From Candidatus Bathyarchaeota archaeon A05DMB-5 (lineage in GTDB: Archaea; Thermoproteota; Bathyarchaeia; Bathyarchaeales; Bathycorpusculaceae): 64,000 nucleotides of DNA. Positions 4,298 to 57,389 of the stretch are shown here, one piece after another. How positions within the stretch are numbered: the first letter of the stretch is position 1; each line of letters opens with the position of its first letter. Below the pieces are notes generated by a model. That model was given only the letters and a program-made list of their open reading frames with translations. It was not told the DNA's origin and ran no database searches. The position numbers were made by a program, and so were the translations under genes. The stretch spans positions 124,001 through 188,000 of the forward strand of contig JABFQP010000001.1 in NCBI GenBank assembly GCA_019685655.1, read 5' to 3'.

Positions 4298-4939
4298 TTA
4301 AAAAGTTTGGAAATTGCCGTTTAGGTTTTTGACTCTGTTTAGGAATTCAGCCATTTCTTTTTCTACTTCTTCTTTTCGTTTTGTTAGAAACTCTAGCTCT
4401 TCCGCTATTTCTTTTAGCCATTCTTTAATGGCGAAATTGCATTCTTGCCAGGTCATTTTCGCAAGATATTCAGAAACATCTTTAGCGGCTTTTTTTCCTA
4501 ATTGGTCGAGTGGATAGTTGATTTGCTGGAATTTTGAGAAAGGAAAAAAGTGTCTAGTTGACCGCGGTTTCATTAGGCGCCCGGTGAGTCCTGCTGAAAT
4601 GACTTCTTCAATAGGGATTTGTCCGTCTGAATTGCATATATAACGGTGAATGCGTCTTTTTCCAACGCGGATTTCTGGATTGTTACAAGCGTCAACAAGT
4701 ATTACTGGTATGCGCGTGTAGCCTAAGCTTTTAAGCGCAAGCCATCGATGCATCCCATCCAGAATAACATGCGTCTTTTCGTCAGCGATTATTGGATATT
4801 TCAGTACACCGTCTTTTAGAATTTCTTGTTTAAGCAATTCCAGATAGATTGGCGAACCTTTCTCGTGAGGTTTCAACTCGTCAATGGGCAATAAAGCAAT
4901 TTTCAAATTTGATTTTTCTGTTAAGACGGCGTGTGTCAC
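4298..4939 (-). CDS. serK: SerK-like free L-serine kinase (ParB/Srx fold)
   Basis: This 213-residue protein has the ParB/sulfiredoxin fold used by the Thermococcus ADP-dependent serine kinase SerK and by SbnI, which convert free L-serine to O-phospho-L-serine. Seen here: LPIDELKPHEKG with the glutamate at the position of the SerK catalytic base, then VILDGMHRWLALKSLG, and a second-half KPRSTRHFFPF like the SerK phosphate-binding region. A 40-residue charged coiled-coil tail follows. Its ATG overlaps the trpB2 stop by 4 bases. TrpB2 enzymes use O-phosphoserine, so product supply to the neighbour is a strong inference. A DNA-binding ParB role is less likely because no HTH follows the ParB core. 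Confidence 0.7.
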   Translation of the reverse strand: MTHAVLTEKSNLKIALLPIDELKPHEKGSPIYLELLKQEILKDGVLKYPIIADEKTHVILDGMHRWLALKSLGYTRIPVILVDACNNPEIRVGKRRIHRYICNSDGQIPIEEVISAGLTGRLMKPRSTRHFFPFSKFQQINYPLDQLGKKAAKDVSEYLAKMTWQECNFAIKEWLKEIAEELEFLTKRKEEVEKEMAEFLNRVKNLNGNFQTF

Positions 4940-6309
4940 TTGCTTTTCCGTCCTTGCGATAGTTGAATTTGCGGCACTTCAATTTTTTCTGGTTCATAAT
5001 CTACGAGTTTTCCAGCGAGGAATTGTTCATACGCTGAAAGGTCCAGTAAGCCGTGTCCGCTGTAGTTCATTGCGATGATTTTCTTTTCGCCTGTTTGCTT
5101 GCATTTTAAGGCTTCGTCCACCACATATTTTAGGCTGTGAGCGGTTTCTGGAGCTATAATTAAGCCTTCTGTTTGGGCTAGTAGTTTGGCAGCTTGGAAA
5201 ATCTCTGTTTGATTGTAGGCGTAGGAGCGCATATACCCCTTATGGATTAGGTAGGATATTGACGGCGCCATTCCATGATATCTTAAACCGCCAGCATGAA
5301 TAGGTGGACAAGCATAACTGTGTCCTAAAGTTAACATCTTAAGGAGCGGCGTCATTTCTGCTGTGTCGCCGAAATCGTATGTGTATGTGCCTTTGGTTGT
5401 GTGTGGAACCGCCTTTGATTCACATGCAACGAATTCCGTGTTTGTTTTGCCTTTAAGTCTGTCCATCATGAATGGAAAGCAGAAACCTGCGAAGTTGGAG
5501 CCGCCGCCTATGCAACCGCAAACCACATCTGGGTATACGCCTATTTGTTCGAATTGTTTTTTGGCTTCTAATCCTATTATGGTTTGGTGCATGAGAACGT
5601 GATTCAGCACTGAACCCAGCGAATAGCGTGTGTCGTCGTGAGTGACTGTGTCTTCGATTGCTTCGCTGATGGCTATGCCAAGCGTTCCGGGATGGTTTGG
5701 GTTTTCTTGGAGGAGTTTTTTACCGAAGTTTGTTTGGTCGCTTGGTGATGGAAACATTTCTGCTCCATAAAGTTGCGCGATTATTCTTCGTCCTGGTTTT
5801 TGCTGATAACTTGCGCGTACCATGTATATGCGGCACTGTAAATCGAAAATTATACAAGACAAAGCCAAAGCGGTGCCCCATTGTCCGGCGCCGGTTTCGG
5901 TTACTAAGCGTTTGATTCCTTGTTTTTTGTTGTAGTATGCCTGCGCAAGGGCGGTGTTGGTTTTGTGGCTGCCTGTGGGGCTGAAGTTTTCGCATTTGAA
6001 GTATATTTGTGCTGGAGTTTTCAAGTAGTTTTCAAGTCTTTTGGCTCTGTATAGGGGTGTTGGGCGTGGTAGTCTAAGGTATGCTTCGAGCACTTCTTCC
6101 GGTATTTTTATGTGGCGTTCTGTTGAGACTTCTTGGAGTATTAGTTCTTTTGCGAATATTCTTTCGAGCAGTTGTGGGCTTATGGGTTTCATTGTTGTTG
6201 GGTCTAGTGGTGGAGACAAGGGTTCGGGGAGGTCGGCTTGTATGTTGTACCATGATGTTGGGATTTCGTCGGGGTTTAGTTGAGTGAAATGTTCGTTTTT
6301 TTGTGTCAT
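4936..6309 (-). CDS. trpB2: tryptophan synthase beta chain, TrpB2 type
   Basis: This 457-residue PLP enzyme condenses indole with a serine derivative to make tryptophan. It is the long TrpB2 form rather than TrpB1: there is an extra N-terminal segment (IPTSWYNIQADLPEPLSPPL) before the catalytic core. The PLP lysine lies in SPTGSHKTNTA, followed by ETGAGQWGTALA and the phosphate-binding CIGGGSNFAGF. Published work shows that TrpB2 enzymes prefer O-phospho-L-serine and act without TrpA. The overlapping serK-like gene fits that. AGGTGA (6317-6322) sets the ATG. No other trp gene is visible in the window. The divergent TrpY-like gene shares its promoter region. Confidence 0.93.
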   Translation of the reverse strand: MTQKNEHFTQLNPDEIPTSWYNIQADLPEPLSPPLDPTTMKPISPQLLERIFAKELILQEVSTERHIKIPEEVLEAYLRLPRPTPLYRAKRLENYLKTPAQIYFKCENFSPTGSHKTNTALAQAYYNKKQGIKRLVTETGAGQWGTALALSCIIFDLQCRIYMVRASYQQKPGRRIIAQLYGAEMFPSPSDQTNFGKKLLQENPNHPGTLGIAISEAIEDTVTHDDTRYSLGSVLNHVLMHQTIIGLEAKKQFEQIGVYPDVVCGCIGGGSNFAGFCFPFMMDRLKGKTNTEFVACESKAVPHTTKGTYTYDFGDTAEMTPLLKMLTLGHSYACPPIHAGGLRYHGMAPSISYLIHKGYMRSYAYNQTEIFQAAKLLAQTEGLIIAPETAHSLKYVVDEALKCKQTGEKKIIAMNYSGHGLLDLSAYEQFLAGKLVDYEPEKIEVPQIQLSQGRKSK

Positions 6310-6420
6310 TTATTTTTCACCTATGAACATTTTAGTACGTTTATGCACATTAGTAAACATTTGATTACACGAACATATTTATACTTTATTCCGCAAAAAT
6401 GTACATGAAGGCACCGCAAA
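6310..6420. promoter_or_regulatory. divergent trpB2 / trpY-like promoter with phased operator array
   Basis: This short divergent region holds six-base boxes at exact 10-bp steps: TGAACA (6324), AGTACG (6334), TGCACA (6344), TAAACA (6354) and ATTACA (6364). A perfect TGTACA lies at 6400-6405, and the A/T element around 6375-6386 can serve as a TATA box in both directions. For trpB2 the predicted start of transcription falls near 6353, inside the array. For the regulator gene the TGTACA lies about at the start of transcription. Known TrpY of Methanothermobacter binds TRP boxes with consensus TGTACA and controls its own gene, the trp operon and trpB2. Confidence 0.7.
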
Positions 6421-6924
6421 ATGTGGAACAACATCAAAAAATACCTAGAAGACTACCCAGAACGACTAAAAGTAGCACGCGTCTTGGTAGAGAACGGATT
6501 AAGTGTAAAAAACGGAAAAATCTATCTAAACGAAATCCAAATTCCGCCAGTGCGTATAGCACGCGTCGCGGGAGTAGACAGGCGCACAGTAACCGAAACA
6601 CTGAACGCCATAAACGCAAACCGCGAACTTCGACTAATATTTGAAGGCTTAAGGTCTGCGGGACATTCACTGAAGGAAATTGCTAAACACCTAAACCTTG
6701 GAGTTGTCGAAATAACACCTGTCGACGCGCGAATACCGGGCATACTTGCAAATTCAGCCATGACTCTAGCAAAAAGCGGATTAAGCATTAGACAAGCAAT
6801 TGTAGATGACCCGGAACTGTCGCCTGAACCAAAACTGACTCTAATTGCTGAAAGGAAAATTCCAGGAGAGCTAATTCCAGAACTTTTAAAGATACACGGT
6901 ATTGCTAAGGTATCTGTATATTAA
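6421..6924 (+). CDS. TrpY-like transcription regulator (HTH plus ACT-like domain)
   Basis: This 167-residue protein resembles COG2150 regulators of amino-acid metabolism. An N-terminal helix-turn-helix region (residues 1-62) includes ARVLVENGLSVKNGKIYL and RIARVAGVDRRTVTETLNAI. The C-terminal part (about 95-167) reads like an ACT-type ligand domain, with GILANSAMTLAKSGLSIRQAI and GELIPELLKIHGIAKVSVY. TrpY of Methanothermobacter is a protein of this kind that senses tryptophan. Divergent placement from trpB2-serK with TGTACA-like boxes between them supports the same role. The ligand here is unproven. Confidence 0.75.
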   Translation: MWNNIKKYLEDYPERLKVARVLVENGLSVKNGKIYLNEIQIPPVRIARVAGVDRRTVTETLNAINANRELRLIFEGLRSAGHSLKEIAKHLNLGVVEITPVDARIPGILANSAMTLAKSGLSIRQAIVDDPELSPEPKLTLIAERKIPGELIPELLKIHGIAKVSVY

Positions 6925-23051: not shown

Positions 23052-23124
23052 CTGCAGCGGTTTTCCTCAAGCAATTTTTATTTATTAGTTGGTATTGTAA
23101 TGTAGGGTTTAAAGGTGTTTATGT

Positions 23125-23418
23125 ATGATTGATGTTTCGTCTTTGAAGGTTGATGGTAAAGCGTGTTTGGGTTTGCGTGTGGATTTGCCGGGTTCGCCGC
23201 CTTTGCTTTTGATTGTTGCTGAGAAGGGTTTTGTGATGTGTGGTTTTCTTAATATGGAGGCTGCGGAAAGGTTGGGAGTGGTTGCTGCGATGGTTAGTGG
23301 AGTGAAAACGTTTGAGGATGTGTTGAATGCGCAGGTTAAAGCGGCTACGTTGAAAGCGAAAAGTCTTGGCGTAGAAGCTGGGATGAAGGGTTCTGATGCT
23401 TTGAAATGTATGTTTTGA
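23125..23418 (+). CDS. DUF1805 family protein
   Basis: This 97-residue protein matches the DUF1805 (YunC-like) family, with GKACLGLRVDLPGSPPLLLIVAEKG split around residue 25 and GFLNMEAAERLGVVAAMVSGV near 52. The function is not known. It stands alone, 73 bases from the divergent lipid synthase gene. About 23 bases after its stop is a run of seven Cs followed by TTATATATA; the same pattern occurs downstream of etfA. It is the last gene before the tRNA-Leu-associated island. Confidence 0.8.
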   Translation: MIDVSSLKVDGKACLGLRVDLPGSPPLLLIVAEKGFVMCGFLNMEAAERLGVVAAMVSGVKTFEDVLNAQVKAATLKAKSLGVEAGMKGSDALKCMF

Positions 23419-23907
23419 AGAGTCTTGCTCTGTGGTGTTGACCCCCCCTTATATATAGATTGGGCTTATGGTTCAATTGTTTGTGCGATTGAGTAGAACG
23501 TAGCTATACTTTAGTAATAATTGCGCGATACTAGCAAGTCCCGTTTCCATAAATTATTTCTCTGGTTATTATGTGACAAAAATAATTCTTTATTAGTTTT
23601 GCACCATAACTTGAAAACTAAAAAAGAGAGGGTTCGTTGAAAAGTGTGGGGGGTGGGATTTACGCACAAATTTACCAGTAAAAAAACACCGCTGAAGAAT
23701 CTAGGATTTTTAATTAGACGTTGCTAACAAAAAGAATGAAACGCTGCGTCAAAGTTTCAATTAAAGAGTTTAAAATAACATGACTATATGGTGAAAGCTG
23801 TCTGAGGAGGTTTCTGGAAAAAGGGCTTTTCCGCTAAAAATGGGAAACAATGCAGCCACAACCGTAATAAGCTGACCAGTAGAACTTCAAAGGCGAGTTG
23901 CAGTTAC
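23419..23907. other. 489-base intergenic stretch spanning the island left edge
   Basis: No convincing gene is seen here. The first half (23419-23643) is ordinary A/T-rich chromosome with a C7 run (23442-23448) and a TATATATA. At 23644 the tRNA-like core repeat begins and marks the left end of the integrated cassette array. From 23684 to 23907 is a leader for the DUF4258 gene, with a TATA-like TTTAAAATAA near 23770 and a six-pair hairpin (23816-23832, GGAAAA/TTTTCC). Whether the roughly 110-base leader is a functional RNA cannot be told. Confidence 0.6.
23644..23683 (+). repeat. attL-like repeat: tRNA-Leu core plus P' arm
   Basis: Bases 23644-23661 match the 3' end of tRNA-Leu (28178-28195) with one change (GTGT for GTGC). 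The next 22 bases are identical to 27132-27153 and contain the near-palindrome TTACCAGTAA (23672-23681). The match to the middle copy is 39 of 40 bases and stops sharply on both sides, as expected for a recombination junction. Confidence 0.8.
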
Positions 23908-24180
23908 ATGAAATATACAAAACACGCAAAAACTAGAGCAGCTGGAAGGGGTATAACTGAGGACATGATTTTGGAGGCAATATTGCAGCCGTCCCAGACA
24001 TATTATGACTTAAGCACGGGAACAACAATCGTCTTCAAGAAGCTTGATGAGAAGCATCTTTTAGTGGCATATTCTAGAGAGGATAAGGAAATCAAAATTG
24101 TGACAACGTTTATAACATCAGACGCCCAAGAAATAATTGGCAGAAAACTGGAAAGCAGAACATGGGTGAGGATTAAGTGA
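23908..24180 (+). CDS. DUF4258 protein, probable toxin of a TA pair
   Basis: This 90-residue protein fits DUF4258, a small group often placed among RelE/BrnT-like toxins. It begins YTKHAKTRAAGRGITEDMI, with the HAKxR motif typical of the family, and has strands FKKLDEKHLLVAYSRED and IKIVTTFITSD. It overlaps the next gene by 4 bases (GTGA). No clear Shine-Dalgarno sequence precedes the ATG. The toxin role is inferred from family and from the coupled DUF2283 gene. Confidence 0.75.
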   Translation: MKYTKHAKTRAAGRGITEDMILEAILQPSQTYYDLSTGTTIVFKKLDEKHLLVAYSREDKEIKIVTTFITSDAQEIIGRKLESRTWVRIK

Positions 24181-24398
24181 AAGTGGAATATGACAGAGAA
24201 TCCGACATATTATACATAAAGTTTAAAGAGTCGGAAATAGCGGACACCAAAATATTAAGTGAAGACGCCTATGTAGACCTAGACAAAGACGGAAACCTCG
24301 TTGGCATAGAAATATGGAAAGCCTCCCAAAACGCCATACTCCCAATATCCAAGGACATAGCCGAAAAACTAAAACTAATTTTAGAAAGCCCAGCCTAA
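24177..24398 (+). CDS. DUF2283 protein, probable antitoxin partner
   Basis: This 73-residue protein is a clear DUF2283 member: KVEYDRESDILYIKF, an acidic middle (DAYVDLDKDGNLVGIEIWKAS) and a short helical tail. It starts at a GTG that overlaps the stop of the DUF4258 gene. DUF2283 genes commonly sit beside DUF4258 genes in archaea and bacteria and are suspected antitoxins, though this is not well tested. Toxin-first order differs from most TA operons. Confidence 0.8.
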   Translation: MKVEYDRESDILYIKFKESEIADTKILSEDAYVDLDKDGNLVGIEIWKASQNAILPISKDIAEKLKLILESPA

Positions 24399-24561
24399 AA
24401 CAAAATTAAACAAGCCTCCAACTAAAACATCGCTTTTCAAACTTTCCCCTAGGACACCAAAACACGCTTTTCAACGCTAAACACTAACTCCTTAGACTTT
24501 TGATTTCTGTTAATATCTCTTAATGGAAAATGGAGGAGGGCTTTAATGAAGTTTTGGAGTG

Positions 24562-26795
24562 TTAAAGCTTAGTGTTATGCCCTTTTTTCTTGATTTTGTT
24601 TGTGAAGATTATGGCTATTGTAAGGAGAACATTAAGTAGCAGCAGTATTAGTGCGGGTGAGAACTCTGGGATTATAATTATTTGGTGTTCTGAGTGGGTG
24701 TAGTTGACGTATATATATGTGTCTGCTGTATCTGTCCAGTTTCTGAAGAGGCATGGTTGACCATTTAATAGAACGGTGTAGTTGCCTTGCCATAATTCTT
24801 GCACAATAATGTTTGGCACAGTTATTCTACAGAAGCCACATGCAGACTCTCCAGTGACATTGAAACTTATCATTTTCTGGTCTATGTTGAGTTCGAAGTT
24901 TGAGACTGTTGAATTGCTTATTATATCAATTTTTTGCGCTGTTCCGTCCCATGTTCCAGCGTCAAAAATGTTGATTGGACCCATAAGTGGATATCTGTCA
25001 ATGTTGTCCACATCAATTATGTATTGTGTGTCGCTGATGCTGTCGTAATCAGCGTCAACTCCTACATGGTCGCTCCAATAGTTTCCGCCAGAAGGATAGC
25101 CGTTGTCCCATGTGCACGGCGATGCGTATGTGCTTATCAAGTTTGTGTTGTTTATGAAGTTGTTATGGTAAATCGTGTTGTTTTCTGATTCGCTGAGGTA
25201 TATGCTCTCAGTGTTGTTTACTATGTTGTTTTCGCATATAGTGTTGTTGTTTGAAGACCAAAGGATGATGCCATACTCATTGCTCGTTATGTTGTTTTTA
25301 CATATGATGTTGTCTGAGGAGGAGGTAAGGTCAATCGCATAATAGCTGTTAGTTATGTTATTTGCATAAATGGTGCATTCAGACGTGTCGATATCAATGC
25401 AAGTATCGATTGCTGAAATGTTATTTTCACTAATAACGATGCTTGAATGTGATGCCCTAATTCCATAATTATTGCCTCTAATTTCATTATTTGATGTTGT
25501 GCAATTTGTAGAGTAGTAAATCTCTATTCCATCTTCATCATTGTCTTCCAACGTGTTTCCGCTAATCATGTTATTCGTGGAATTTGTAATGTAAACTCCA
25601 TAATTGTTTCTTTGAATAATGTTTCCAATTATAGTGTTGTTTGAACAGTTGTATAGGTATATCCCGTCACAGTTGCTTGTCAAATTGTTATTTTTGATTC
25701 TCGTGTTATTTGTGTAGGCTAGCAGAATCCCATCGCTGCTTTTAGTGCGGTTCAATCCTTCAATGATGATGTTTGTCGAGTTTATTAGGGCAAGATAACC
25801 AATTTCTGGATGCGTTGTCGCGTTAATAGTTAAGTGGTGCTGGTTGATTAGGTAGTATACTGGTTTGCCGTCTATAAGATTTGAAGTGTCAATTGAATGC
25901 AGATACTCATCTAATTCTTCTCCCCAAATGCCAATTCCGCCGTAAAGATTGTCATTAAACAGATTACTATACATCGAGATGTTTATGCACCTGTCAAGGA
26001 ATACAACCCAATGGTGTTTCATCACATTGTTTTGGTAAATTCTCGTGTTATTACATCGTTCAAGGCTTATGCCATGGTAACTTTCTGTTACGTTGTTCCC
26101 GTAAATTTGGCTGTCTGCTGAACTGTACATGAGGATACTGTTACCATAAGATGTGGGATCCATATTTTTGAAATGCTGTTTTCAGAAATTGTAGTGTTAT
26201 ACGCGTTTGTTAGTTCTATGCCAGCATAAGTGTTTCCCGTGATGTTATTCCCAGAAATAGTGTCGCTAAAAGAAAACACAAAGTAAAAGCCTGTGTGGCC
26301 TCCTGTCATATAGTTTCCAGAAATTATAGTTTCATAAGTGTTGTAGCCCCAAATGTTATCCATTGTGTTATTAAGAGCGCTTTTCAAGATTGTGATGCTA
26401 GTCGTCTCGTTCAATTTGATGCCGTAATAAAAGTCTTTAACCGTCACATTTGCAATCGTAACATTACTCAAGCTGTAAAGGGAAATTCCAACGGATTTAT
26501 ATTCTTCTTTGCCTTGAACTGCAAAGCCATTTCCGTCAAGCACTATGTTGTCTCTCTCTATGACGATTGCGCTTGTGTAGCTTGGAACGTTTCCGACAAT
26601 GTTGTCTGTCAACGTGTAAGTCACATTATTCACTGTTGATATGGGCGCACCTGAAGGTTCTATGCTTCCGTTAGCCCTTATGTAAATGGTTTGACTCCAA
26701 ACGTAATCAGGCTTAACTGGGTGAATGTTAAACGCTATTGTTAAAGTGCTTACAAATAGCAGAAACAACATTAATCCAGAAACTGTTTTCTTCAT
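24562..26795 (-). pseudogene. frameshifted secreted right-handed beta-helix (NosD/CASH-type) surface protein with PEF-CTERM-like tail
   Basis: Two overlapping reading frames form one protein of about 745 residues. The first (26795-26088) begins with a signal peptide (MKKTVSGLMLFLLFVSTLTIAF) cut short here and has Asn-rich beta-helix repeats. Near 26165-26169 a run of five Ts on the + strand (As in the gene) appears one base short: adding one A changes SISKIWIP into SISKNMDPTSYGN, which continues in the second frame. Repeats such as NNTIIGNIIQRNNYGVYI follow. The C-terminus is IPEFSPALILLLL plus a basic end, a PEF-CTERM-like sorting signal. AGGTGA (26802-26807) precedes the ATG. It could be a real mutation, a phase-variable tract or an assembly error. 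Confidence 0.75.
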
Positions 26796-27224
26796 TTTAT
26801 TTCACCTAGCAATATTTTTCATGTTTAACATTTAAAATTTTGTGGAAACGCCCTCTATTGTTGAAATATATTAATTGAACGTTTATTGATGTGCGGATGT
26901 ATGTTATTGGCTATACTCCATCATCTATAAATACGTGGATAGAACGAGGCTATTCGTGATCTGTTTTCCTTTAGTCATCGTTAACTGAACATAAATTCAA
27001 GCGATTGCAAAGATTTTTACTAGTAATTTTATGCTGAAATATTAGCCCCCACCAACAATGCCTTAAATCTAGCTTATTTTGCTAAAATACGCTTAAATAA
27101 TGCTTCTTTTCAAGTGCGGGGGGTGGGATTTACGCACAAATTTACCAGTAAAAGTTCTTATTAGTTTGAGGAAAAATATCGAAAAATTTGGGGTGCAATG
27201 TTGTATGTGATTTATCTTCAGTTT
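26796..27224. other. 429-base intergenic stretch with surface-gene promoter and island junction
   Basis: The left part holds the promoter of the surface-protein gene, with ATTTAAAATTTT near 26830-26841 on the minus strand. From 27015 to 27153 lies the hybrid junction between the two cassettes. The remainder to 27224 is A/T-rich spacer after the antitoxin-like gene. I see no gene in it. Confidence 0.6.
27015..27153 (+). repeat. hybrid junction repeat: A arm, tRNA-Leu core, P' arm
   Basis: Bases 27015-27131 align without gaps to 28079-28195, about 87 percent identical by my count. Bases 27114-27153 align with 23644-23683 at 39 of 40. The overlap (27114-27131) is the 18-base core, equal to the 3' end of tRNA-Leu. 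TTACTAGTAA (27017-27026) and TTACCAGTAA (27142-27151) flank the core. This is the layout of a circle junction (attP) re-created between two tandem integrations. Confidence 0.8.
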
Positions 27225-27431
27225 TTATATTTTTTCTTCTTTTTTCAACTGCCTAATCTCTTTTTCAATTTGCTCGATTGTTAGTGTTTCTGTAGCTCTT
27301 CTAAGCTCCACTACAGAATCGCCATATTTACGTCTAATTTCACTAAGGAATTTTATAGCCCTTTTTGCTCCAAGTTCTTTTACGAGCGCCTCAAAAGGCA
27401 CTTCCACCGTTGCTATCTGAGTCTCGGTCAT
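27225..27431 (-). CDS. small antitoxin-like protein
   Basis: This protein of about 68 residues (MTETQIATVEVPFEALVKEL at the N-terminus) has a beta strand followed by charged helices, as in many VapB-type antitoxins, and ends in a Lys/Glu-rich tail. GGTGA stands five bases before ATG 27431, four bases after the PIN gene stop; another in-frame ATG at 27443 would overlap it. I assign antitoxin from size and pairing only; no named DNA-binding fold is certain. Confidence 0.65.
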   Translation of the reverse strand: MTETQIATVEVPFEALVKELGAKRAIKFLSEIRRKYGDSVVELRRATETLTIEQIEKEIRQLKKEEKI

Positions 27432-27435
27432 TTTT

Positions 27436-42002: not shown

Positions 42003-42133
42003 ACGTTCCGTTTGAATTTGTGAACACTTCTAATACTGTGAACATTTTAAACTTTACCTTTTTACCAGCAAGGTTTAAACAGAAAACTAAATGTATGCAC
42101 AAGCAATATTGACTTAATTCCGAGGGAAACAGA

Positions 42134-43312
42134 GTGATTGATGACCTATTGAATCTAGTCCAAAAACATGAGGAATGGCGAGGAAAACAATGCCTCAACC
42201 TCATACCTTCAGAAAATATTATGAGCCCCGCTGTACGTAAACTGCTTTCTTCAGAACTTGGACATCGATACACTGCAAGAGACCGCTTCTACATGGGCAC
42301 ACGCTACCTAGATGAAATCGAACAGTACGGGGAAGAAATCGCAAAAAAAGTGTTCAGAGCGGAAACTGCAGATTTGCGCCCGCTTTCAGGACACATTGCT
42401 GATTTGATTTTTTTGGCTAATTTCACGAAGCGTGACGATACGTTAATGTGTATTTCTCCAGAAAACGGTGGATACCCTGGAATGTGGAACGATGCTCTAG
42501 CGGGACTGTTAAGCCTCAAAACTGTGCCCTTTCCTTTCTCTAAGGCTGACATGAACATACAAGTTGAAGAAGCAAAGGAAACCATAAAACGCGTTAAGCC
42601 TAGAGTGGTGATTTTCGGTGCAAGCCTAATCACTTTTCCACAGCCGGTAAAAGATTTGGCACAAGTCACCAAGGAAAATGGCGCGTGCATAGGGTTTGAT
42701 GGCTCCCATGTTTTAGGGCTTATCGCTGGCGGTCAATTTCAAGATCCACTAAGAGAAGGTGCCCACGCCCTTTTCGGTTCCACACACAAAAGCTTCTTTG
42801 GACCTCAAGGAGGAATAATCTTAGCAGACAAAGAACACGGTGAGATTCTTAAAGGGAAAGTGTATCCTGGTTTTGTAGACAATGCCCACTGGAACCGCAT
42901 TGCAGCGTTAACTTTGGCGTTGATGGAGATGGAAAAATTTGGAAAGGCTTACGCAAAGCAAGTGGTTCGCAACTCGCAAGCTTTGGCGAAAGCCTTGTTT
43001 GATCATGGTTTTCCTGTTATCTGCAGTCATTTGGGATTCACTAAATCGCATCAGATAATATTGGATTATGGAAGTTACGAGCATGGAAGAGTTATCGCAG
43101 AAAAACTTCAGCTTGCAAACATTATTACTGACTGCGTTATAAGAATTGGCACTTGCGAAGTCACGAGACGCGGAATGAAAGAGCAAGAAATGTTACAAAT
43201 TGCTGAATTGATTAAGAGAACAATCATTGACAAGGAACAGCCAGAAAAAATCAGAAAAGATGTTGCAAAACTTTGTGCGGAATTTCAAAAGATTGAATAC
43301 TGCTTTGATTAG
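42134..43312 (+). CDS. glyA: serine hydroxymethyltransferase family protein
   Basis: This 392-residue PLP enzyme matches the SHMT family, which interconverts serine and glycine with a tetrahydropterin carrier. Features are LNLIPSENIMSPAVRKLLSSELGHRYT (residues about 21-47), DGSHVLGLIAGGQF for PLP, and the Schiff-base lysine in FGSTHKSFFGPQGG. The sequence is shorter and more diverged than bacterial GlyA, as usual in archaea. The start is a GTG. It diverges from the surface-protein gene and is followed by taw1. Confidence 0.82.
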   Translation: MIDDLLNLVQKHEEWRGKQCLNLIPSENIMSPAVRKLLSSELGHRYTARDRFYMGTRYLDEIEQYGEEIAKKVFRAETADLRPLSGHIADLIFLANFTKRDDTLMCISPENGGYPGMWNDALAGLLSLKTVPFPFSKADMNIQVEEAKETIKRVKPRVVIFGASLITFPQPVKDLAQVTKENGACIGFDGSHVLGLIAGGQFQDPLREGAHALFGSTHKSFFGPQGGIILADKEHGEILKGKVYPGFVDNAHWNRIAALTLALMEMEKFGKAYAKQVVRNSQALAKALFDHGFPVICSHLGFTKSHQIILDYGSYEHGRVIAEKLQLANIITDCVIRIGTCEVTRRGMKEQEMLQIAELIKRTIIDKEQPEKIRKDVAKLCAEFQKIEYCFD

Positions 43313-49586: not shown

Positions 49587-51536
49587 TTAATGTGTTTTCT
49601 CTTCTTTCTCAAGAAAGCCCGTTAGGAAAATGGCGTACTCGCATGGATGCTCATTCTGTAGCAGAGATTTTATGATCTTTATTTTGCCTTTTTTGCCATG
49701 GCTCACTCTGGAAATGACGTAATCCAGCGTTTTTTTGCGTACTGTACAAAGCCAAGTTTTCTGCTGGTTTTTAACCAGCTTGTAATATGGACATGTTTTA
49801 TATTTGAGTGTAAAGCCGCCTTCAAAGTATTCTATTTCAACTTCTATGCCTAACTCTCTGTACATGTCGCTTAGTCTGTCGCCCACTTCTCTGATAGTCC
49901 ACGGGTAATCTTCCGGAAACATCTCATCTAATTGTTCCTTCTCAAGTGCAAAGGCTTCTTCCACCGTTTTGCATGAGGTCATCTCATCAACAAGCGTCTG
50001 CATTATTCTCTTTCTTGGCACGGGCTCCAGAACTGGTTTTTCAAGCAGTTTCAGTTTGAAGCTGAGGAGATTTTGGAACACTGTTGTGGAAATGTCGTAT
50101 CCAAGTTCTCTAAACATGGACTCGATAAGCATCCGCTGACTGTTCATTATTAAAGGTTCAACTCTTTTGAATATCATGGTGAAGTGCTCGTCGTCTACAA
50201 AGCGCACTTCCGCATCTGGTTGAGTCGCGTTGATACTTTTAAGGATAAAATTCTGTGACAATCTTCTGATTTTTTCTTGGTCGTTTCTTGCAAGCATGCG
50301 AATAGCATTTGCGATGCGAACACCAGTAGCGCGGTATATTTCATCAAATTTCTGTCTATCAGTCTCGTAAACTTTGGACGCAAAAGAGTTAAAGAGTTCG
50401 CGAGGAACCGGAACCACATCCAAGAATTGTTTGCCAATAGTTTGGAAGAGGCTTAGTTCAGCCAGTTGGTCGAGGAGGCTTTGGTCTTCTGCGCCTACGT
50501 ATTTTACTGTCATGTTCACTGTTGTGTGTTCAATTGAGTAGTTTACAAGTTTCCATCCGCGCGTCGCGAGCATGACAGAAAAGGCTGCGACTGATATGCG
50601 CGTCACTGGAATTGCTGTCACTTGAAAAACTAGTTCTAACGTGTTTTCTTCTTTTTCCGCTAATACCTTTGCTTGCCTAAACCAGTTCATTTTAACACAC
50701 GCGGAAAGCAGTCCCTTCACAAAATCTTTAGGCTCTTTAGGAAGCTCATCCGCACCTAAAGCAATCCGCACATCCTCTATGAAAGAACCTAGGTCTGTGA
50801 CTGGTTCTTCCAGATGCTTTTCAGCCCAACTCATGAAGGCAGGTCCAACCAACATCAGGTTATTTTTGAACAATCCCGGCGTTACATTTGACAATCTTTT
50901 TTCAATTTGCTGGTCAAGAAACTCGCCAAACTCTCTTTTTCGCAGAGGATAAACTTCGGAACGAATCATTTTAATGACTATGTCTTCCCCCATCATGCGA
51001 AGGTCAAAAGGGACGCCTATGCCTTCAAGAATAGTTGCAATTTGAAACGCCACTATTTCGGGCAGACGTTTGAACGCTTTTGGTCGCAGTATAGCAATAC
51101 TGTCTATCTCACTGTAGGATGGAATGTCAAACATCCGCGTTAAATTCCTAATTTCTTCAAGAACCGAGACGAACTCTTTGAAGTTGGATGGAGTTTTCCA
51201 CGCAACCGATCCCTTCAAAATTTCAATAATATTTTTTGCTTCCGCTTTCTGTTCCTTTATGAGAGCTTCAATGGTTTTGTCTCCAACAGCAACATCAAGC
51301 AAGCTGTCTAAAGTTTTCCTACCAACAGATGTTAAGTCAAGAGCTTCTCTAAGATTTGTCTGCTCACTCATCCTTGCCTTTATCGCGCAATCGTCGCATG
51401 AACCAACCTTATCAACTCTCAAAAGGGTTTCTACTGCTTTTTCGAGAACACGACTTTTTGTTCCATACGTTTTTGCTAGTTCTTCGAGTGCTTCGTTGGT
51501 TTTTCTAGTTATGGTGGTGTGAAGATGCACGGACAT
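49587..51536 (-). CDS. large ribbon-helix-helix protein with cysteine clusters, probable sensor-regulator
   Basis: This 649-residue protein has an N-terminal ribbon-helix-helix-like DNA-binding segment (VHLHTTITRKTNEALEELAK, then YGTKSRVLEKAVETLL) and a CDDC pair near residue 48. The long middle is helical with at least one repeated alpha/beta unit (MFRELGYDIS near 485 and MYRELGIEVE near 560). The C-terminus has CPYYKLV, then C-x14-C and C-x34-C spacing (WLCTVRK, HPCEYAIFL), like metal or Fe-S sites in several archaeal regulators. I know no named family for the whole. Phased TGTNCA boxes precede it. Confidence 0.7.
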   Translation of the reverse strand: MSVHLHTTITRKTNEALEELAKTYGTKSRVLEKAVETLLRVDKVGSCDDCAIKARMSEQTNLREALDLTSVGRKTLDSLLDVAVGDKTIEALIKEQKAEAKNIIEILKGSVAWKTPSNFKEFVSVLEEIRNLTRMFDIPSYSEIDSIAILRPKAFKRLPEIVAFQIATILEGIGVPFDLRMMGEDIVIKMIRSEVYPLRKREFGEFLDQQIEKRLSNVTPGLFKNNLMLVGPAFMSWAEKHLEEPVTDLGSFIEDVRIALGADELPKEPKDFVKGLLSACVKMNWFRQAKVLAEKEENTLELVFQVTAIPVTRISVAAFSVMLATRGWKLVNYSIEHTTVNMTVKYVGAEDQSLLDQLAELSLFQTIGKQFLDVVPVPRELFNSFASKVYETDRQKFDEIYRATGVRIANAIRMLARNDQEKIRRLSQNFILKSINATQPDAEVRFVDDEHFTMIFKRVEPLIMNSQRMLIESMFRELGYDISTTVFQNLLSFKLKLLEKPVLEPVPRKRIMQTLVDEMTSCKTVEEAFALEKEQLDEMFPEDYPWTIREVGDRLSDMYRELGIEVEIEYFEGGFTLKYKTCPYYKLVKNQQKTWLCTVRKKTLDYVISRVSHGKKGKIKIIKSLLQNEHPCEYAIFLTGFLEKEEKTH

Positions 51537-51633
51537 GATTTGTCACATGATTATCGTTTTATCGGTTGCTTTTAAATATGTTCACAAAAATCAATAAATG
51601 TACATCAATAAACACAGAAAAAAGAAGGATAGT
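51537..51633. promoter_or_regulatory. promoter of the ribbon-helix-helix gene with phased boxes
   Basis: TGTTCA (51579-51584), TGTACA (51599-51604) and TAAACA (51609-51614) lie at offsets of 20 and 10 bases, on one face of the helix. On the minus strand ATATTTAAAAGC (about 51569-51580) is the likely TATA box, so the boxes overlap it and extend upstream of it. The upstream gdh gene ends at 51634, so this region also contains its 3' end. Confidence 0.6.
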
Positions 51634-53403
51634 TTAGCTGGACATGATTGGTGAAACTGCTTTTCCCTTGCGCGCCATCATGGCATCAGCGACTCTCTTG
51701 ACGGCTAACATGTAAGCTGCTGTCCGCATGTTCACACTATGTTGCGTTGACATTTTTAGAACATCGTTGAACGCTTTGGTTATAGTATCCTTAAGTTTAG
51801 CGCGCACTTCTTCTTCTGTCCAGTAGTAATTCATTTGGTTTTGCACTTGCTCAAAATAGCTGACAATGACGCCGCCCGAATTTGCTAGAATGTCTGGAAT
51901 GACGAAAATTCCTTTCTTGTATAGGATTTCGTCTGCTTCGGGTGTTACTGGTCCGTTTGCGCCTTCTGCCACTATCTTCGCTTTAATTTTGTTTGCGTTC
52001 TTTTCGGTTATCTGGTTCTCCAAAGCCGCGGGAACAAGTATGTCACATTCCATTTCCAACAATTGCTCATTTGTTATGAGTTGGCTGCCCGGGTAATCAA
52101 CCACAGAACCTGTCTTGTCCTTGTGCTCTAACACTTTCACCGGGTCTAAGCCTTGCGGATTGTATATGCCGCCTTTAGAGTCTGAAACTGCTATGATTTT
52201 GCATCCGATTTCATGGAGCAATCGTGCTGCGTGATAGCCAACGTTTCCGTAGCCTTGCACCGCCACCGTCGCACCTTTCAAGTTTATGCCTAAATGTTTT
52301 GCTGCCTCCATAACCGTGTACATTACGCCTCTTGATGTAGCCTCGTTTCTTCCAAGCGAACCACCAACATTAACTGGCTTACCAGTCACCACGCCAAAAA
52401 CAGGATAGCCTACAATTTCGCTGTATTCGTCCATTATCCACGCCATCATTTCTGCGGTTGTGTAAACGTCTGGTGCAGGAACGTCGGTGAAGGGTCCTAT
52501 GAACTTGGAGATGGCACGTGCGTATCCTCTTGTTAGGCGTTCTAGTTCCGCCTTCGACATCTCCTTAGGATTGCATCTTATCCCGCCTTTTCCGCCACCA
52601 AGTGGTAGTCCAGTAACGGCTGTTTTCCAAGTCATCCAAGCAGCTAAGGCTGTAACTTCGTCTAGTGTTAGGTCAGGGTGGTATCGTATGCCGCCCTTAG
52701 TTGGTCCTAAAGCATCGTTATACTGTACACGATAACCCGTGAAAACGCGGACGCTGCCGTCATCCATGACTACAGGAATGTTAACGATGAAAGCACGCAT
52801 CGGATGCTTCAATATTTCGTGTATGCCAGGGTCTAGGTTCAGTTTTTGAGCCGCAATGTCTAATTGTTTAAGGGCGGCTTCGTAAGGGTTTGGCACAACA
52901 ACAGGAGGCGCTAACGTCTCGATGTTAATGAACACAGCTGTTTGAAGTTTTTCTACCAAAGTCTTAAGAAGTTCACGTGCTACTTCCCCGTTACCACCAC
53001 CGTTGCTTCCATAGAACCAATGATAAGCTTCGGCCAAAGCATCTGGGCGATTTGACAGAAAAGACCCGGCAGGCGCCATTTTAGGAGATTCAGAGAAGTA
53101 ATCAATCAAAACACGCAACATGTTCAATTCGTCTCTCGACAAAGGCAGTAATTTCTTTAGCGGCTCAGGTGCTTTAACATGAACATACTCAGCTTCGTTG
53201 ATTTTTTTCTGGAGGCCTTCAAAGACTTTCCAAGCGTCTTCTGATGGGATACCGAAGTTTTCAGAGTATGTGGTTACAAGAGCGTAGTGGGCTGTTGTAT
53301 AGCTTTCAATTTTAGCTGTAAGTTCTGGTTTTTCAGCGAAAAAATCAGCCATAAGCTTTAGCATTCCTAGTTCTCGCGCTGAAAGTTCTACTAAATTCAA
53401 CAT
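51634..53403 (-). CDS. gdhA: glutamate dehydrogenase with duplicated N-terminal extension
   Basis: This protein of 589 residues is about 170 longer than usual GDH. The catalytic part starts near residue 169 ([15 protein letters not shown]) and has [26 protein letters not shown], the NAD(P) fold [13 protein letters not shown] and [16 protein letters not shown]. Before it are two similar units of about 80 residues, beginning [20 protein letters not shown] and [23 protein letters not shown] 53403 is chosen because GGAGG (CCTCC at 53415-53419) precedes it. TGTACA-type boxes stand upstream. A second GDH without the extension is at 56.1 kb. Confidence 0.92.
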
Positions 53404-53552
53404 TTCACTTAATTCCTCCGGAAGCACAGTAAGACTAATGTTCAACTATAGAAATATTATGTCCATTATGTACACGCGTGTACAACATCATTAACGCAAA
53501 CCGAAACGCAACATAACATTTTTAACCACGCCAGAGAATTCAAAACGCGAGC
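53404..53552. promoter_or_regulatory. divergent gdh / KaiC-like promoter with TGTACA palindrome
   Basis: The perfect 16-base palindrome TGTACACGCGTGTACA (53469-53484) consists of two TGTACA boxes 10 bases apart. A TGTTCA at 53439-53444 lies exactly three turns away, in the predicted gdh core promoter or leader. On the plus strand a TATA-like CATTTTTAACC (53515-53525) serves the KaiC-like gene. Confidence 0.65.
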
Positions 53553-54305
53553 GTGCAACCAATGCAAAATGAACAAAAAAGTTTCTACTCAACCGGCATA
53601 AAAAGCCTTGACCGACTCTTAGGCGGCGGCTTAATACTAGGCGAAAACGTTCTTTGGGAGATAGAGTCTGGAACATTCGCCAAAGAATTCCTCTACTCAT
53701 TCATAAAACAAGGCATAATTGAAGGAAATCAGGTAATCTACTTAGACTTCATTTATCCTCCACAAGCGTTAATGTTACAACTTGCTCAATTAACCAAAAC
53801 ATTACCAGACGGATGGGAAAAGAGATTATTAGTGCTCGACTGTTTCTCAGAAGCAGCAGGGCAAGGTGAACTCATTTTCAGCGACTTTTACGACAAAGCA
53901 CCCACATGGATGAGAAAAGTCCCAAGCTCAAAAGACCCAGATAGATTCCACCACTTTTTTGGAAGAATAGAGAGAGAATTCGTAACGCCGGGCACGCGAC
54001 TTGTTTTCAACAGTTTGTCCCTCATGGAACACAACTGGGGAAGAGATGCTGTAAAAACTTTTTTTGGACACGTTTGCCCAGCATTATATGCATACCAAAC
54101 TTTGGCTTATTGGACAATGGCCAAAAACGCGCATCCAAAGGAGTTTTGCGCAATGATTGAACACATGACGCAGGTTGTTATTGATTTGTCAAAAAATGGC
54201 GACAAAAACTTCATCAAGATAAGGAAGGCAGGCGGAAGATATGACGCCCAGACTTATCAGCAACGCGAATATATCGTCAAAGGACTCCAAATAGATATTC
54301 TTTAA
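53553..54305 (+). CDS. KaiC/RecA-superfamily protein with degenerate P-loop
   Basis: This 250-residue protein has the KaiC-like opening STGIKSLDRLLGGGLILGENVLW, shown here around residues 13-35, and later strands VIYLDFIYPP and RLLVLDCFSE. The Walker A site, normally GxxGxGKT, reads EIESGTFAKEF, so the P-loop glycines and the GKT are lost and ATP hydrolysis is doubtful. The C-terminal half includes TRLVFNSLSLME and EHMTQVVIDLSKNG as in KaiC relatives. It starts at a GTG close to its predicted transcription start. It may be a non-catalytic regulator or partner. Confidence 0.78.
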   Translation: MQPMQNEQKSFYSTGIKSLDRLLGGGLILGENVLWEIESGTFAKEFLYSFIKQGIIEGNQVIYLDFIYPPQALMLQLAQLTKTLPDGWEKRLLVLDCFSEAAGQGELIFSDFYDKAPTWMRKVPSSKDPDRFHHFFGRIEREFVTPGTRLVFNSLSLMEHNWGRDAVKTFFGHVCPALYAYQTLAYWTMAKNAHPKEFCAMIEHMTQVVIDLSKNGDKNFIKIRKAGGRYDAQTYQQREYIVKGLQIDIL

Positions 54306-54439
54306 TCAGCACCGCTATAAAATTATGGTTTAATGTTCATGAATGTTCATTTTTGCGGCAGTTTAAAGCAACGCTTAAATTCTAACGCAAATATCCCTTC
54401 ATACTCCAAAAAAGTTTGCATTTGTAAAGGTGAAAGAAA
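54306..54439. promoter_or_regulatory. promoter of the glutamate-synthase-like gene with two phased TGTTCA boxes
   Basis: TGTTCA occurs at 54334-54339 and 54344-54349, 10 bases apart, followed by TTTTTGCGG. The 15 bases from 54344 match the minus strand at 6391-6405 in the trp promoter with one change. A TATA-like GCTTAAATTC (54374-54383) lies downstream of the boxes, so here they occupy an upstream, activator-like position. AAAGGTGAAAG precedes the ATG at 54440. Confidence 0.6.
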
Positions 54440-56047
54440 ATGAGTGAACGTGTACACAGAAACAGCTCTTACCTGAACGGAAAATCAACCACCGGAACAA
54501 CAACTCGTGTCAAAGACACAAGCCCAACAAGTGGAATGTGCCCAATATGCATCCGTGACTGCCCAATAATGTGCGAAATCAGCCTATCAGGTTTCAGAGG
54601 AAGAGAAGCCCTCTACCCAGAACCGGTCCAATTTGGATACAGCACCGCAGGAGCGCTCAAAGACTTCGGACTAGACTGGTCACACTTTAATATACAAGCA
54701 GGCTTGTTCGAAGCACTTGGAATAGAAGAAAACTCAGATGTCGCCCTTTTCCCAAACGTGAGCACAGAGACCAAAGTAGGAGGCATACCAATAAAAGTTC
54801 CAATATTAGCTGGCGCATTTGGCTCAACTGATGTCGCTAGACTAAACTGGGAAGGATTAGCAATAGGCACAGCACTTTCAGGCGCAATAATAATCGTTGG
54901 AGAAAACGTCTGCGGTATGGACCCCGAAGCCCAAATCACCCAAGGCAAAGTAACATATTCAAAAGAACTGAAACGCAGAGTTGACTTGTTCCGAAAGTTT
55001 TGGGATGGAAAATACGGCGATATTGCTGTGCAGACAAACGTTGAAGACCAAAGATTAGGAGTTGACGTCTATGCGATATCAAAATTGGAAGTAAACGTTA
55101 TCGAGAGAAAGTGGGGACAAGGCGCCAAAGCTATAGGAGGCGAAGTTCGTGTCAGAGACTTGGACAGAGCAATAATGCTGAAGAAACGAGGCTACGTGGT
55201 AATTCCAGACCCAGAAGACCCAACAGTACAGCAAGCATTTAAAGAAGGCGTATTCAAATCCTTCGAAAGACACAGCAGAGTAGGCATACCAAAAGAAAAG
55301 AACATGATAGAAGACATAGAATGGCTACGCAAACAAGGCGCAAAACACGTAACACTAAAAACTGGCGCATACAGACCCTCAGCAGTCGCCTACACAATGA
55401 AAATAGCCTCAGAAGCAAAAATAGACGCCGTATACTTCGACGGAGCAGGTGGCGGAACAGGCATGAGCCCGGTTCCAATGATGGATGAAATGAGCATACC
55501 AACAGTCTACCTAGAAGCAATAGTGCTCAAATGCGCACAATTATTAAAGAAGAAGGGACGCTACGTTCCAGACATAATCATGGCTGGAGGATTCATAAAC
55601 GAAACACAGATTTTCAAGGCAATAGCAATGAGCAACTTTGGAGACAGCCCATTCGTGAAAGCAGTGTTAATGGGACGCTCGCCCTTGACGGCTGTCATGA
55701 AAGCAAACTACTTCAAGCAGTTATCAGAAGAAGGCAAGCTTCCGAAAGCCTTTGCGGACAGATTTGGCAACACGCCAGAAAAGTTCTTCATCGCAGCGCC
55801 AGAATTGAAAGAAAAATACGGCGACAGATTCAAAGAAATACCGTGGGAAGCAGTGACACTTTACACCTACTTAACTGACCGCATAGGCGTAGGACTAAAG
55901 CAGCTTCTGGCAGGCAACAGAAAGTGGAAACTAGAACTTATCAACAGAAACGATTTAATGAGCTTGTCCGAACTTGCCGCACAAGTTACAGGTATACCTT
56001 TGGCGCACGAAGCAGAAAAAGACGCTGTAGAAAGAATACTGGGCTAA
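54440..56047 (+). CDS. FMN-binding glutamate synthase-like protein
   Basis: This 535-residue protein is the free-standing archaeal form of the central FMN domain of glutamate synthase. It has an N-terminal cysteine cluster (CPICIRDCPIMCEI near residue 35), ILAGAFGSTDVARLNWEG, VTLKTGAYRPSAVAY, and the FMN/phosphate region YFDGAGGGTGMSP and IIMAGGFINETQIFKAIAM. No glutaminase domain is attached, so ammonia or a separate subunit would supply nitrogen. Position between two gdh genes and the shared boxes point to glutamate metabolism. Confidence 0.87.
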   Translation: MSERVHRNSSYLNGKSTTGTTTRVKDTSPTSGMCPICIRDCPIMCEISLSGFRGREALYPEPVQFGYSTAGALKDFGLDWSHFNIQAGLFEALGIEENSDVALFPNVSTETKVGGIPIKVPILAGAFGSTDVARLNWEGLAIGTALSGAIIIVGENVCGMDPEAQITQGKVTYSKELKRRVDLFRKFWDGKYGDIAVQTNVEDQRLGVDVYAISKLEVNVIERKWGQGAKAIGGEVRVRDLDRAIMLKKRGYVVIPDPEDPTVQQAFKEGVFKSFERHSRVGIPKEKNMIEDIEWLRKQGAKHVTLKTGAYRPSAVAYTMKIASEAKIDAVYFDGAGGGTGMSPVPMMDEMSIPTVYLEAIVLKCAQLLKKKGRYVPDIIMAGGFINETQIFKAIAMSNFGDSPFVKAVLMGRSPLTAVMKANYFKQLSEEGKLPKAFADRFGNTPEKFFIAAPELKEKYGDRFKEIPWEAVTLYTYLTDRIGVGLKQLLAGNRKWKLELINRNDLMSLSELAAQVTGIPLAHEAEKDAVERILG

Positions 56048-56069: not shown

Positions 56070-56138
56070 AGTTTTCAGTTAAATCCTTAAATTTAAGAAT
56101 AAACAAGCAGATAGAATACTGTGGAGGAGAAATGTTCT

Positions 56139-57389
56139 ATGGTGGAAACTCAATCAGCACTAAGCGTTGCATGTGAACAATTGAAAATAGCTGCAGAAAA
56201 ATTAAAACTAGACCCCGACATACATGAGATGCTCCGACACCCGAAAAGGTCACTCGTCGTCTCTATTAACATAAAGATGGATAACGGCAGCGTTTGCACT
56301 TTCCTAGGTTGTCGTGTGCAACATAACGATGCAAGAGAACCCTTCAAAGGTGGAATATGCTACCATCCAAACGTTTCTCTTGACGAAGTCACGGCATTGG
56401 CAATGTGGATGACGTGGAAATGCGCAGTTGTAGACATACCATATGGTGGCGCAAAAGGAGGAGTATGCTGTAATCCTAAGGAGATGTCGAAGGCGGAACT
56501 AGAACGCCTAACAAGGCGATATACAACCTTAATTTTGGACATAATCGGACCATACCGGGATGTGCCGGCGCCAGACGTTTACACAGATGCGCAGACAATG
56601 GCCTGGATAATGGACACTTATAGTCAATTTAAGGGCTACAGTGTTCCAGAATGCGTCACCGGCAAGCCCATAAGTGTTGGCGGTTCAGAAGGAAGGGCAG
56701 AAGCCACATCGCTTGGTGTAGTAGTCTGCGCAAGAGAAGCCGCTAAAAATTTGGGATTAAAGCTGAAAGGTGCGACGGTGGCGGTGCAAGGCTACGGAAA
56801 CGTTGGTTGGAACGCGGCAAAAATAGCCTACGACATGGGCTGCAAAATCGCAGCGGTAAGCGACTCAACTGGGGGAATTTACTGTGAGAAAGGTCTTAAC
56901 CCTTACAAGATATATGAGCATAAATTCAAAACAGGTTCAGTAACCAATTATGAAAAATGTGAGAACATAACAAATGAGGAATTACTCGAAACAAAATGCG
57001 ACATACTAATACCAGCAGCACTGGAAAATCAGATAACCGAAAAGAACGCAAACAAAATTAAAGCGAAGATAGTGGCAGAAGGCGCAAACGGACCAACAAC
57101 TCCAGATGCTGACAAGGCGCTTCATGAAAAAGGAATACTTTTGGTTCCAGACATCTTGGCTAACTCTGGCGAAGTAACAGCAAGCTACTACGAGTGGGTG
57201 CAAAACCTCACAAGAGAACATTGGGCAGTAGAAGAAGTAAATCGGAAATTAGAAGATAAAATGGTCAGAGCCTTCAATGATGTTCACAAACTGGCAAAAA
57301 AGGAAGAAAGTGACATGCGAACTGCAGCTTTGATGCTTGGTGTAGGAAGAGTTGCAGAGGCAATAAAGACACTAGGCTTATGGCCGTAA
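56139..57389 (+). CDS. gdhA: glutamate dehydrogenase, standard length
   Basis: This GDH of 416 residues lacks the N-terminal extension of its paralog. It has [39 protein letters not shown] and ANSGEVTASYYEWVQN. In the last motif the second glycine usual in GDH (NxGGV) is a glutamate, which may alter activity. ATG 56139 is chosen because GGAGGAG (56123-56129) precedes it; a GTG at 56121 would place the Shine-Dalgarno inside the gene. Bases 57030-57095 are identical to the other gdh, unlike the surrounding sequence. Confidence 0.92.
   Translation: MVETQSALSVACEQLKIAAEKLKLDPDIHEMLRHPKRSLVVSINIKMDNGSVCTFLGCRVQHNDAREPFKGGICYHPNVSLDEVTALAMWMTWKCAVVDIPYGGAKGGVCCNPKEMSKAELERLTRRYTTLILDIIGPYRDVPAPDVYTDAQTMAWIMDTYSQFKGYSVPECVTGKPISVGGSEGRAEATSLGVVVCAREAAKNLGLKLKGATVAVQGYGNVGWNAAKIAYDMGCKIAAVSDSTGGIYCEKGLNPYKIYEHKFKTGSVTNYEKCENITNEELLETKCDILIPAALENQITEKNANKIKAKIVAEGANGPTTPDADKALHEKGILLVPDILANSGEVTASYYEWVQNLTREHWAVEEVNRKLEDKMVRAFNDVHKLAKKEESDMRTAALMLGVGRVAEAIKTLGLWP

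Follow-up and report, generated by a model that had tools for sequence, protein, structure and literature searches.

Similar TGTNCA boxes at tryptophan and glutamate promoters of a Bathyarchaeia genome, probably read by two different regulators

The TrpY regulator of Methanothermobacter contains a single tryptophan, Trp-2. Xie & Reeve (2005) and Karr et al. (2008) reportedly described TGTACA as the consensus of its TRP boxes, Trp-2 as its lone tryptophan and the control of trpB2 by this protein. In M. thermautotrophicus, TrpY binds TRP boxes located in overlapping divergent promoters and represses trpY and trpE, an arrangement that the source gives without box sequence; the homologue from Thermococcus is not a regulator of trp (PMC6737238). 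MetOD1, a domain related to the V4R sensor domains, has in common with them a conserved cluster of three cysteines (PMC5847659).

We analyzed a 64,000-nucleotide stretch of the genome of Candidatus Bathyarchaeota archaeon A05DMB-5 (positions 124,001 to 188,000 of contig JABFQP010000001.1), hereafter the window, in which an initial annotation had noticed a 15-mer shared between a glutamate synthase promoter and a trp promoter and had attributed it to one regulator with a window-wide amino-acid/nitrogen regulon. The placement proved right, with TGTTCATTTTTGCGG at 54344-54358 on the plus strand, TGTACATTTTTGCGG at 6391-6405 on the minus strand and one mismatch between them, and both are predicted promoter sites of amino-acid/nitrogen genes; the single regulator and its window-wide regulon are unsupported.

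TrpY, trpB2 and their common promoter

The trp copy of the 15-mer lies in the following arrangement:

4936..6309, minus strand: TrpB2-type tryptophan synthase beta (TIGR01415, 672.5 bits, cut-off 518.85)
6310..6420, either strand: trpB2/trpY divergent control region, with GNACA boxes at 6325, 6345, 6371 and 6401
6391..6405, minus strand: TRP-box pair with a spacing of 10 bp, TGTACA and a degenerate TGCGGA, lying at the predicted start site of trpY
6421..6924, plus strand: TrpY-family transcription regulator (NF053754, 183.8 bits, cut-off 180)

The TrpY gene is divergent from a trp gene, with boxes of the TGTACA type in the common promoter. TrpY is above the NF053754 cut-off in 36 of 61 relatives and was found in 37 of them; it appears to be absent from G003, G034, G005, G012 and G060, among others, as judged from draft genomes. 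Trp-2 is present in all 30 orthologues and is the sole tryptophan in 29 of them; a sequence search against solved structures found none of a TrpY relative. The trpY promoter of the relatives has the form GAACATATTTATACTTTATTGCACAAAAAAGTACAT, in which boxes at positions 0, 20 and 30 surround the TATA box, and GNACA pairs spaced by 10, 20 or 30 bp occur 40 times in 22 genomes, compared with 0.05 in shuffled sequences, a count that reflects constraint plus descent, as the genomes are related. Positions 6391-6405 correspond to the final two boxes of this promoter read backwards, the GCGG portion being a degenerate box, and the second box of the pair is TGTGC in the relatives.

Bathyarchaeia are thus predicted to have a TrpY/TRP-box system, in which TrpY (6421-6924) would bind helically phased TGTACA-like TRP boxes in the joint trpY/trpB2 promoter. 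Because these boxes flank the trpY TATA box and occupy the predicted start site, TrpY would repress trpY itself and, in the presence of tryptophan, trpB2 as well. The gene that follows trpB2 (4298-4939, minus strand) resembles the archaeal serine kinase SerK/SbnI (NF053625, E = 2.9e-14, far under the cut-off); since TrpB2 enzymes are reported to use O-phosphoserine, its product might supply the TrpB2 substrate.

Glutamate genes and their boxes

The second copy of the 15-mer belongs to a compact cluster:

49587..51536, minus strand: 649-aa protein, the candidate reader of the glutamate boxes, with a predicted ribbon-helix-helix (CopG-like) N-terminus and a C-terminus resembling MetOD1/V4R
51579..51614, minus strand: boxes in the promoter of this gene, TGTTTATTGATGTACA (51614-51599) and TGAACA (51584-51579)
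51634..53403, minus strand: glutamate dehydrogenase (gdh) with an N-terminal extension, start revised to a conserved ATG at 53403
53439..53484, minus strand: 46-bp gdh/KaiC-like operator, TGTACA-N4-TGTACA-N3-TGGACA-N15-TGAACA, with the same architecture in 15/15 genomes
53553..54305, plus strand: protein with a KaiC-like ATPase domain, encoded divergently from gdh and immediately 5' of gltB
54334..54349, plus strand: doublet of boxes upstream of gltB, TGTTCA-N4-TGTTCA, at a distance of about 105 bp from its ATG
54344..54358, plus strand: reported 15-mer TGTTCATTTTTGCGG, its first 10-11 bases kept in relatives, its GCGG tail not
54440..56047, plus strand: glutamate synthase large-subunit-like protein GltB (Glu_synthase domain, PF01645)

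The 649-aa protein gene, the long glutamate dehydrogenase and the KaiC-like gene are referred to below as the module; close homologues of the KaiC-like protein occur only alongside it or its remnants. A TTG at 53445 was considered as the gdh start and is ruled out by stops in relatives. The N-terminal extension, about 170 residues past the revised start, is found in module-bearing genomes only, and the window encodes a second glutamate dehydrogenase (56121-57389) without it. Decayed module copies are present at L070 (G035), L075 (G022), L234 (G049) and L226 (the second copy of G110), in the form of KaiC-like genes interrupted by stops and of C-terminal regulator fragments; G035 retains a perfect gdh operator even though almost nothing is left of gdh.

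The operator upstream of gdh is near-invariant over its 46 bp, with the consensus TGTNCA-N4-TGTACA-N3-TGNACA-N15-TGAACA in 15/15 genomes whose dehydrogenases are about 67-98% identical; in G165 the first base is changed and in G196 one box letter. A matrix built from the operators of the other genomes gives 64.5 bits at 53439-53484, the next window position scoring -0.9, and ranks four promoters over the rest of the window: those of gdh, the ribbon-helix-helix gene (second best), gltB and trpY/trpB2. The glnA, thrC and short-gdh promoters of the window contain no doublet. In the promoter of the 649-aa protein gene, the TGAACA box abuts a TATA-like ATATTTAAAAG, and the box pattern is kept in most of the 8 orthologues examined. 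The gltB doublet is found at -102 to -108 in G001, G003, G022, G026, G035 and G058 and also precedes gltB in G005, G016 and G034.

Comparison with the relatives locates the conserved part of the 15-mer. The second TGTTCA that the initial annotation had placed upstream does start at 54334, exactly 10 bp 5' of the first, and it matters, as what is conserved is a helically phased TGTNCA doublet, that is, TGTNCA hexamers with a 10 bp period. The GCGG tail of TGTTCATTTTTGCGG varies, reading TGTTCATTTTCGGCG in a genome of the same genus and TGTTCATTTTTGAG, TGTTCATTTCAGCA or TGTTCATTTTTCAG in others; where TGTTCATTTTTGCGG shows a TGCGG tail, the same-genus genome has TTTTCGGCG.

One regulator or two

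As a match, the trp/gltB pair is within chance. Fourteen pairs of different intergenic segments of the window have a 15-mer in common with at most 1 mismatch, compared with 4-12 (mean 6.75, or about 7 pairs expected per window) under a first-order Markov null; part of the observed excess is due to genuine repeats. Across the 1.51-Mb genome, TGTWCATTTTTGCGG is found 3 times when up to 1 mismatch is allowed. One could accordingly suppose that the 15-mer arose by chance and that neither site is functional, and the doublet is indeed without genome-wide enrichment. However, both box sets stand at fixed positions in diverged relatives, and this conservation already contradicts the explanation, which we regard as highly improbable.

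TGTWCA-N4-TGTWCA, with up to one mismatch, matches the genome 32 times and the reversed control 29 times, and most matches are inside genes; by the refuting condition that the initial annotation itself had set, this counts against a broad regulon. A genome-wide amino-acid regulon is therefore rejected, which leaves a predicted local one of three promoters. Additional intergenic matches have as neighbours a mobile-type gene, EF-1alpha and an NAD(P)HX-epimerase-like gene, named by eye from their translations. The promoter region of serine hydroxymethyltransferase (gene 42134-43312) has two TGAACA boxes at 42021-42044 that are 18 bp apart, which is not the 10-bp spacing. A long near-identical repeat (GGGGGGTGGGATTTACGCACAAATTTACCAG...) occupies two intergenic regions, 23052-24561 and 26796-27435, and flanks a pair of repetitive surface-type protein genes (24562-26795). 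Among named GTDB contigs, a scan found one relative, Candidatus Bathyarchaeota isolate A05DMB-I-11.

A rival reading, in essence that of the initial annotation, is an expanded TrpY regulon, with TrpY alone controlling trpB2, trpY, gltB and gdh. The TGTACA core and the 10-bp phasing are common to both box sets, and the gdh-derived matrix gives the trp region one of the highest promoter scores in the window. The distribution of the boxes points elsewhere: in a set of 32 gltB promoters, the presence of the doublet does not depend on TrpY (7/21 with it, 3/11 without, p = 1) and tracks the gdh module or its remnants (10/12 vs 0/20, p = 1e-6), the exact-test p-values overstating independence because the genomes are related. 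Fourteen TrpY-bearing genomes have a gltB without boxes, and in the other direction the gltB doublet is kept in three genomes without detectable TrpY (G003, G034 and G005), the gdh operator being intact in these and in TrpY-less G012 and G060. TrpY is thus disfavoured as the reader of the gltB boxes, and its sole control of all four genes appears quite unlikely. The strength of the trpY boxes is alike with or without the ribbon-helix-helix gene (p = 0.48, one group having only four genomes). None of 13 trpB2 promoters from TrpY-less genomes has the doublet; trpB2 in those genomes is of a more distant type, about 50% identical.

Five further module genomes, obtained from a class-wide search after the hypothesis was formed and thus held out, have the gdh operator in 5/5 (one with the first base changed) and the doublet in 3/3 of those with a module-linked gltB. 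Two sister genomes of genus g44 differ in this respect: G197 carries the module together with the gltB doublet, and in G049 the regulator is reduced to its last 121 codons and the doublet is missing. There are exceptions: G060 carries the module without a gltB doublet, and G022 and G026 have retained the doublet with nothing more of the module than KaiC-like remnants or a partial KaiC-like gene, the regulator not being detected. The loss of the module in separate lineages points to a genuine tie between doublet and module, shared ancestry notwithstanding. Because the gltB doublet follows the gdh module and not TrpY, a single regulator is disfavoured, and these comparisons indicate that two different regulators read the trp and the glutamate boxes. 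The two box sets may be cross-bound in A05DMB-5, since the trp region, too, obtains a high score from the gdh matrix. Sequence, conservation, co-occurrence and the dissociation of the two box sets are direct observations in this analysis.

A different possibility is that a third factor encoded elsewhere, for example of the Lrp/AsnC type, reads the glutamate boxes and that the ribbon-helix-helix protein just travels with the module. Archaeal Lrp proteins respond to amino acids, Sa-Lrp to glutamine (PMC3584215), the DNA-binding domain of the candidate is assigned by fold and pattern only, and G022 and G026 have gltB boxes in its absence. Against this, gltB boxes are lost where the module is gone (0/20, and G049 as compared with G197), and boxes precede the regulator gene itself, which leaves a third factor fairly unlikely in our judgment. 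We favour as probable, with room for doubt, the reading in which TrpY recognizes the trpY/trpB2 boxes and a separate 649-aa regulator the local glutamate boxes.

A candidate glutamate regulator and its relation to known systems

The first 45 residues of the 649-aa protein are ribbon-helix-helix-like (Pfam RHH_3, 16.4 bits, under the cut-off of 21.6), and the HLHTTI strand is invariant in its orthologues. In a model of the N-terminus (pLDDT 74) this strand is not formed in the monomer; the fold matches listed for it, with weak Foldseek E-values, are all ribbon-helix-helix proteins or toxin-antitoxin chains of that kind, with CopG ranking first (best Z 5.4) and ParD and Sulfolobus ORF56 among the others. 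The full-length model is poor (pLDDT 58) and contains repeated strand-strand-helix-strand-strand units. At the C-terminus, MetOD1 (PF18546) matches with 19.2 bits, under the gathering score of 23.8, and below threshold in 6 of 8 orthologues; three cysteines (582, 597 and 632) are conserved. The sole match of the protein in a sequence search against solved structures was to a homing endonuclease, an implausible identity.

Tandem symmetric boxes at helical spacing suit cooperative dimer arrays of ribbon-helix-helix proteins. Boxes one helical turn apart, some of them at its own promoter, fit an autoregulated protein of this family, and the 649-aa protein is probably the reader of the glutamate boxes. 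We infer its operator binding from co-occurrence and from the boxes at its own promoter; DNA binding, the effector, the sign of control and the choice of this protein over another factor as reader are predictions of the two-regulator reading. At three nearby promoters, those of gdh/KaiC-like, its own gene and gltB, it would occupy the tandem TGTNCA boxes as dimers in a cooperative array, and its V4R/MetOD1-like C-terminal region may act as the sensor. Boxes that overlap the core promoters of its own gene and the KaiC-like gene, and that are near the presumed gdh start, suggest that the protein may act there as a repressor. At gltB, where the boxes are upstream of a TATA-like element, it might activate or exert control to a different degree. 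For dehydrogenase and synthase to be controlled in opposite directions would be physiologically sensible, although this is a guess. That the 649-aa protein is a nitrogen or amino-acid sensor of Bathyarchaeia that joins a V4R-like sensor and a ribbon-helix-helix DNA-binding end in a single polypeptide and sets gdh against gltB, and that its boxes resemble TRP boxes closely enough for it and TrpY to cross-regulate tryptophan and glutamate genes in this lineage, is a speculation that we consider unlikely.

Bathyarchaeia are abundant and largely uncultured, and transcription control in them is almost unknown. Two operator-regulator pairs are predicted from this analysis: TRP boxes with TrpY, outside the Euryarchaeota, and, in a compact cluster of glutamate genes, a 46-bp near-invariant operator with a candidate regulator whose architecture is unusual. 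Purified proteins would allow both predictions to be tested in vitro, with no need of a cultured host. More generally, a striking common motif can arise from two regulators with look-alike boxes. A literature search found no report of a Bathyarchaeia glutamate regulator, and the putative 649-aa ribbon-helix-helix protein encoded beside glutamate dehydrogenase is previously undescribed.

Like TrpY of M. thermautotrophicus, the protein encoded at 6421-6924 is a family member over the curated cut-off, has a single tryptophan at residue 2 and is encoded divergently from a trp gene with TGTACA-like boxes in overlapping promoters; in Bathyarchaeia, however, the divergent partner is trpB2 and not the trpE operon, and the boxes, which are predicted sites, are often degenerate (GNACA). 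The 649-aa protein may have an N-terminal strand-helix-helix fold, as predicted from models, in common with CopG and Sulfolobus ORF56, and tandem boxes at helical spacing would suit such a protein, but it differs in its large C-terminal part, with several predicted strand-strand-helix-strand-strand units and a MetOD1-like end, and in its link to glutamate metabolism. Its MetOD1-like end and three conserved cysteines are reminiscent of MetOD1/V4R, whereas the architectures described for methanogens are MetOD1 alone, REC-MetOD1 and REC-PAS-MetOD1, a ribbon-helix-helix fusion not being among them (PMC5847659).
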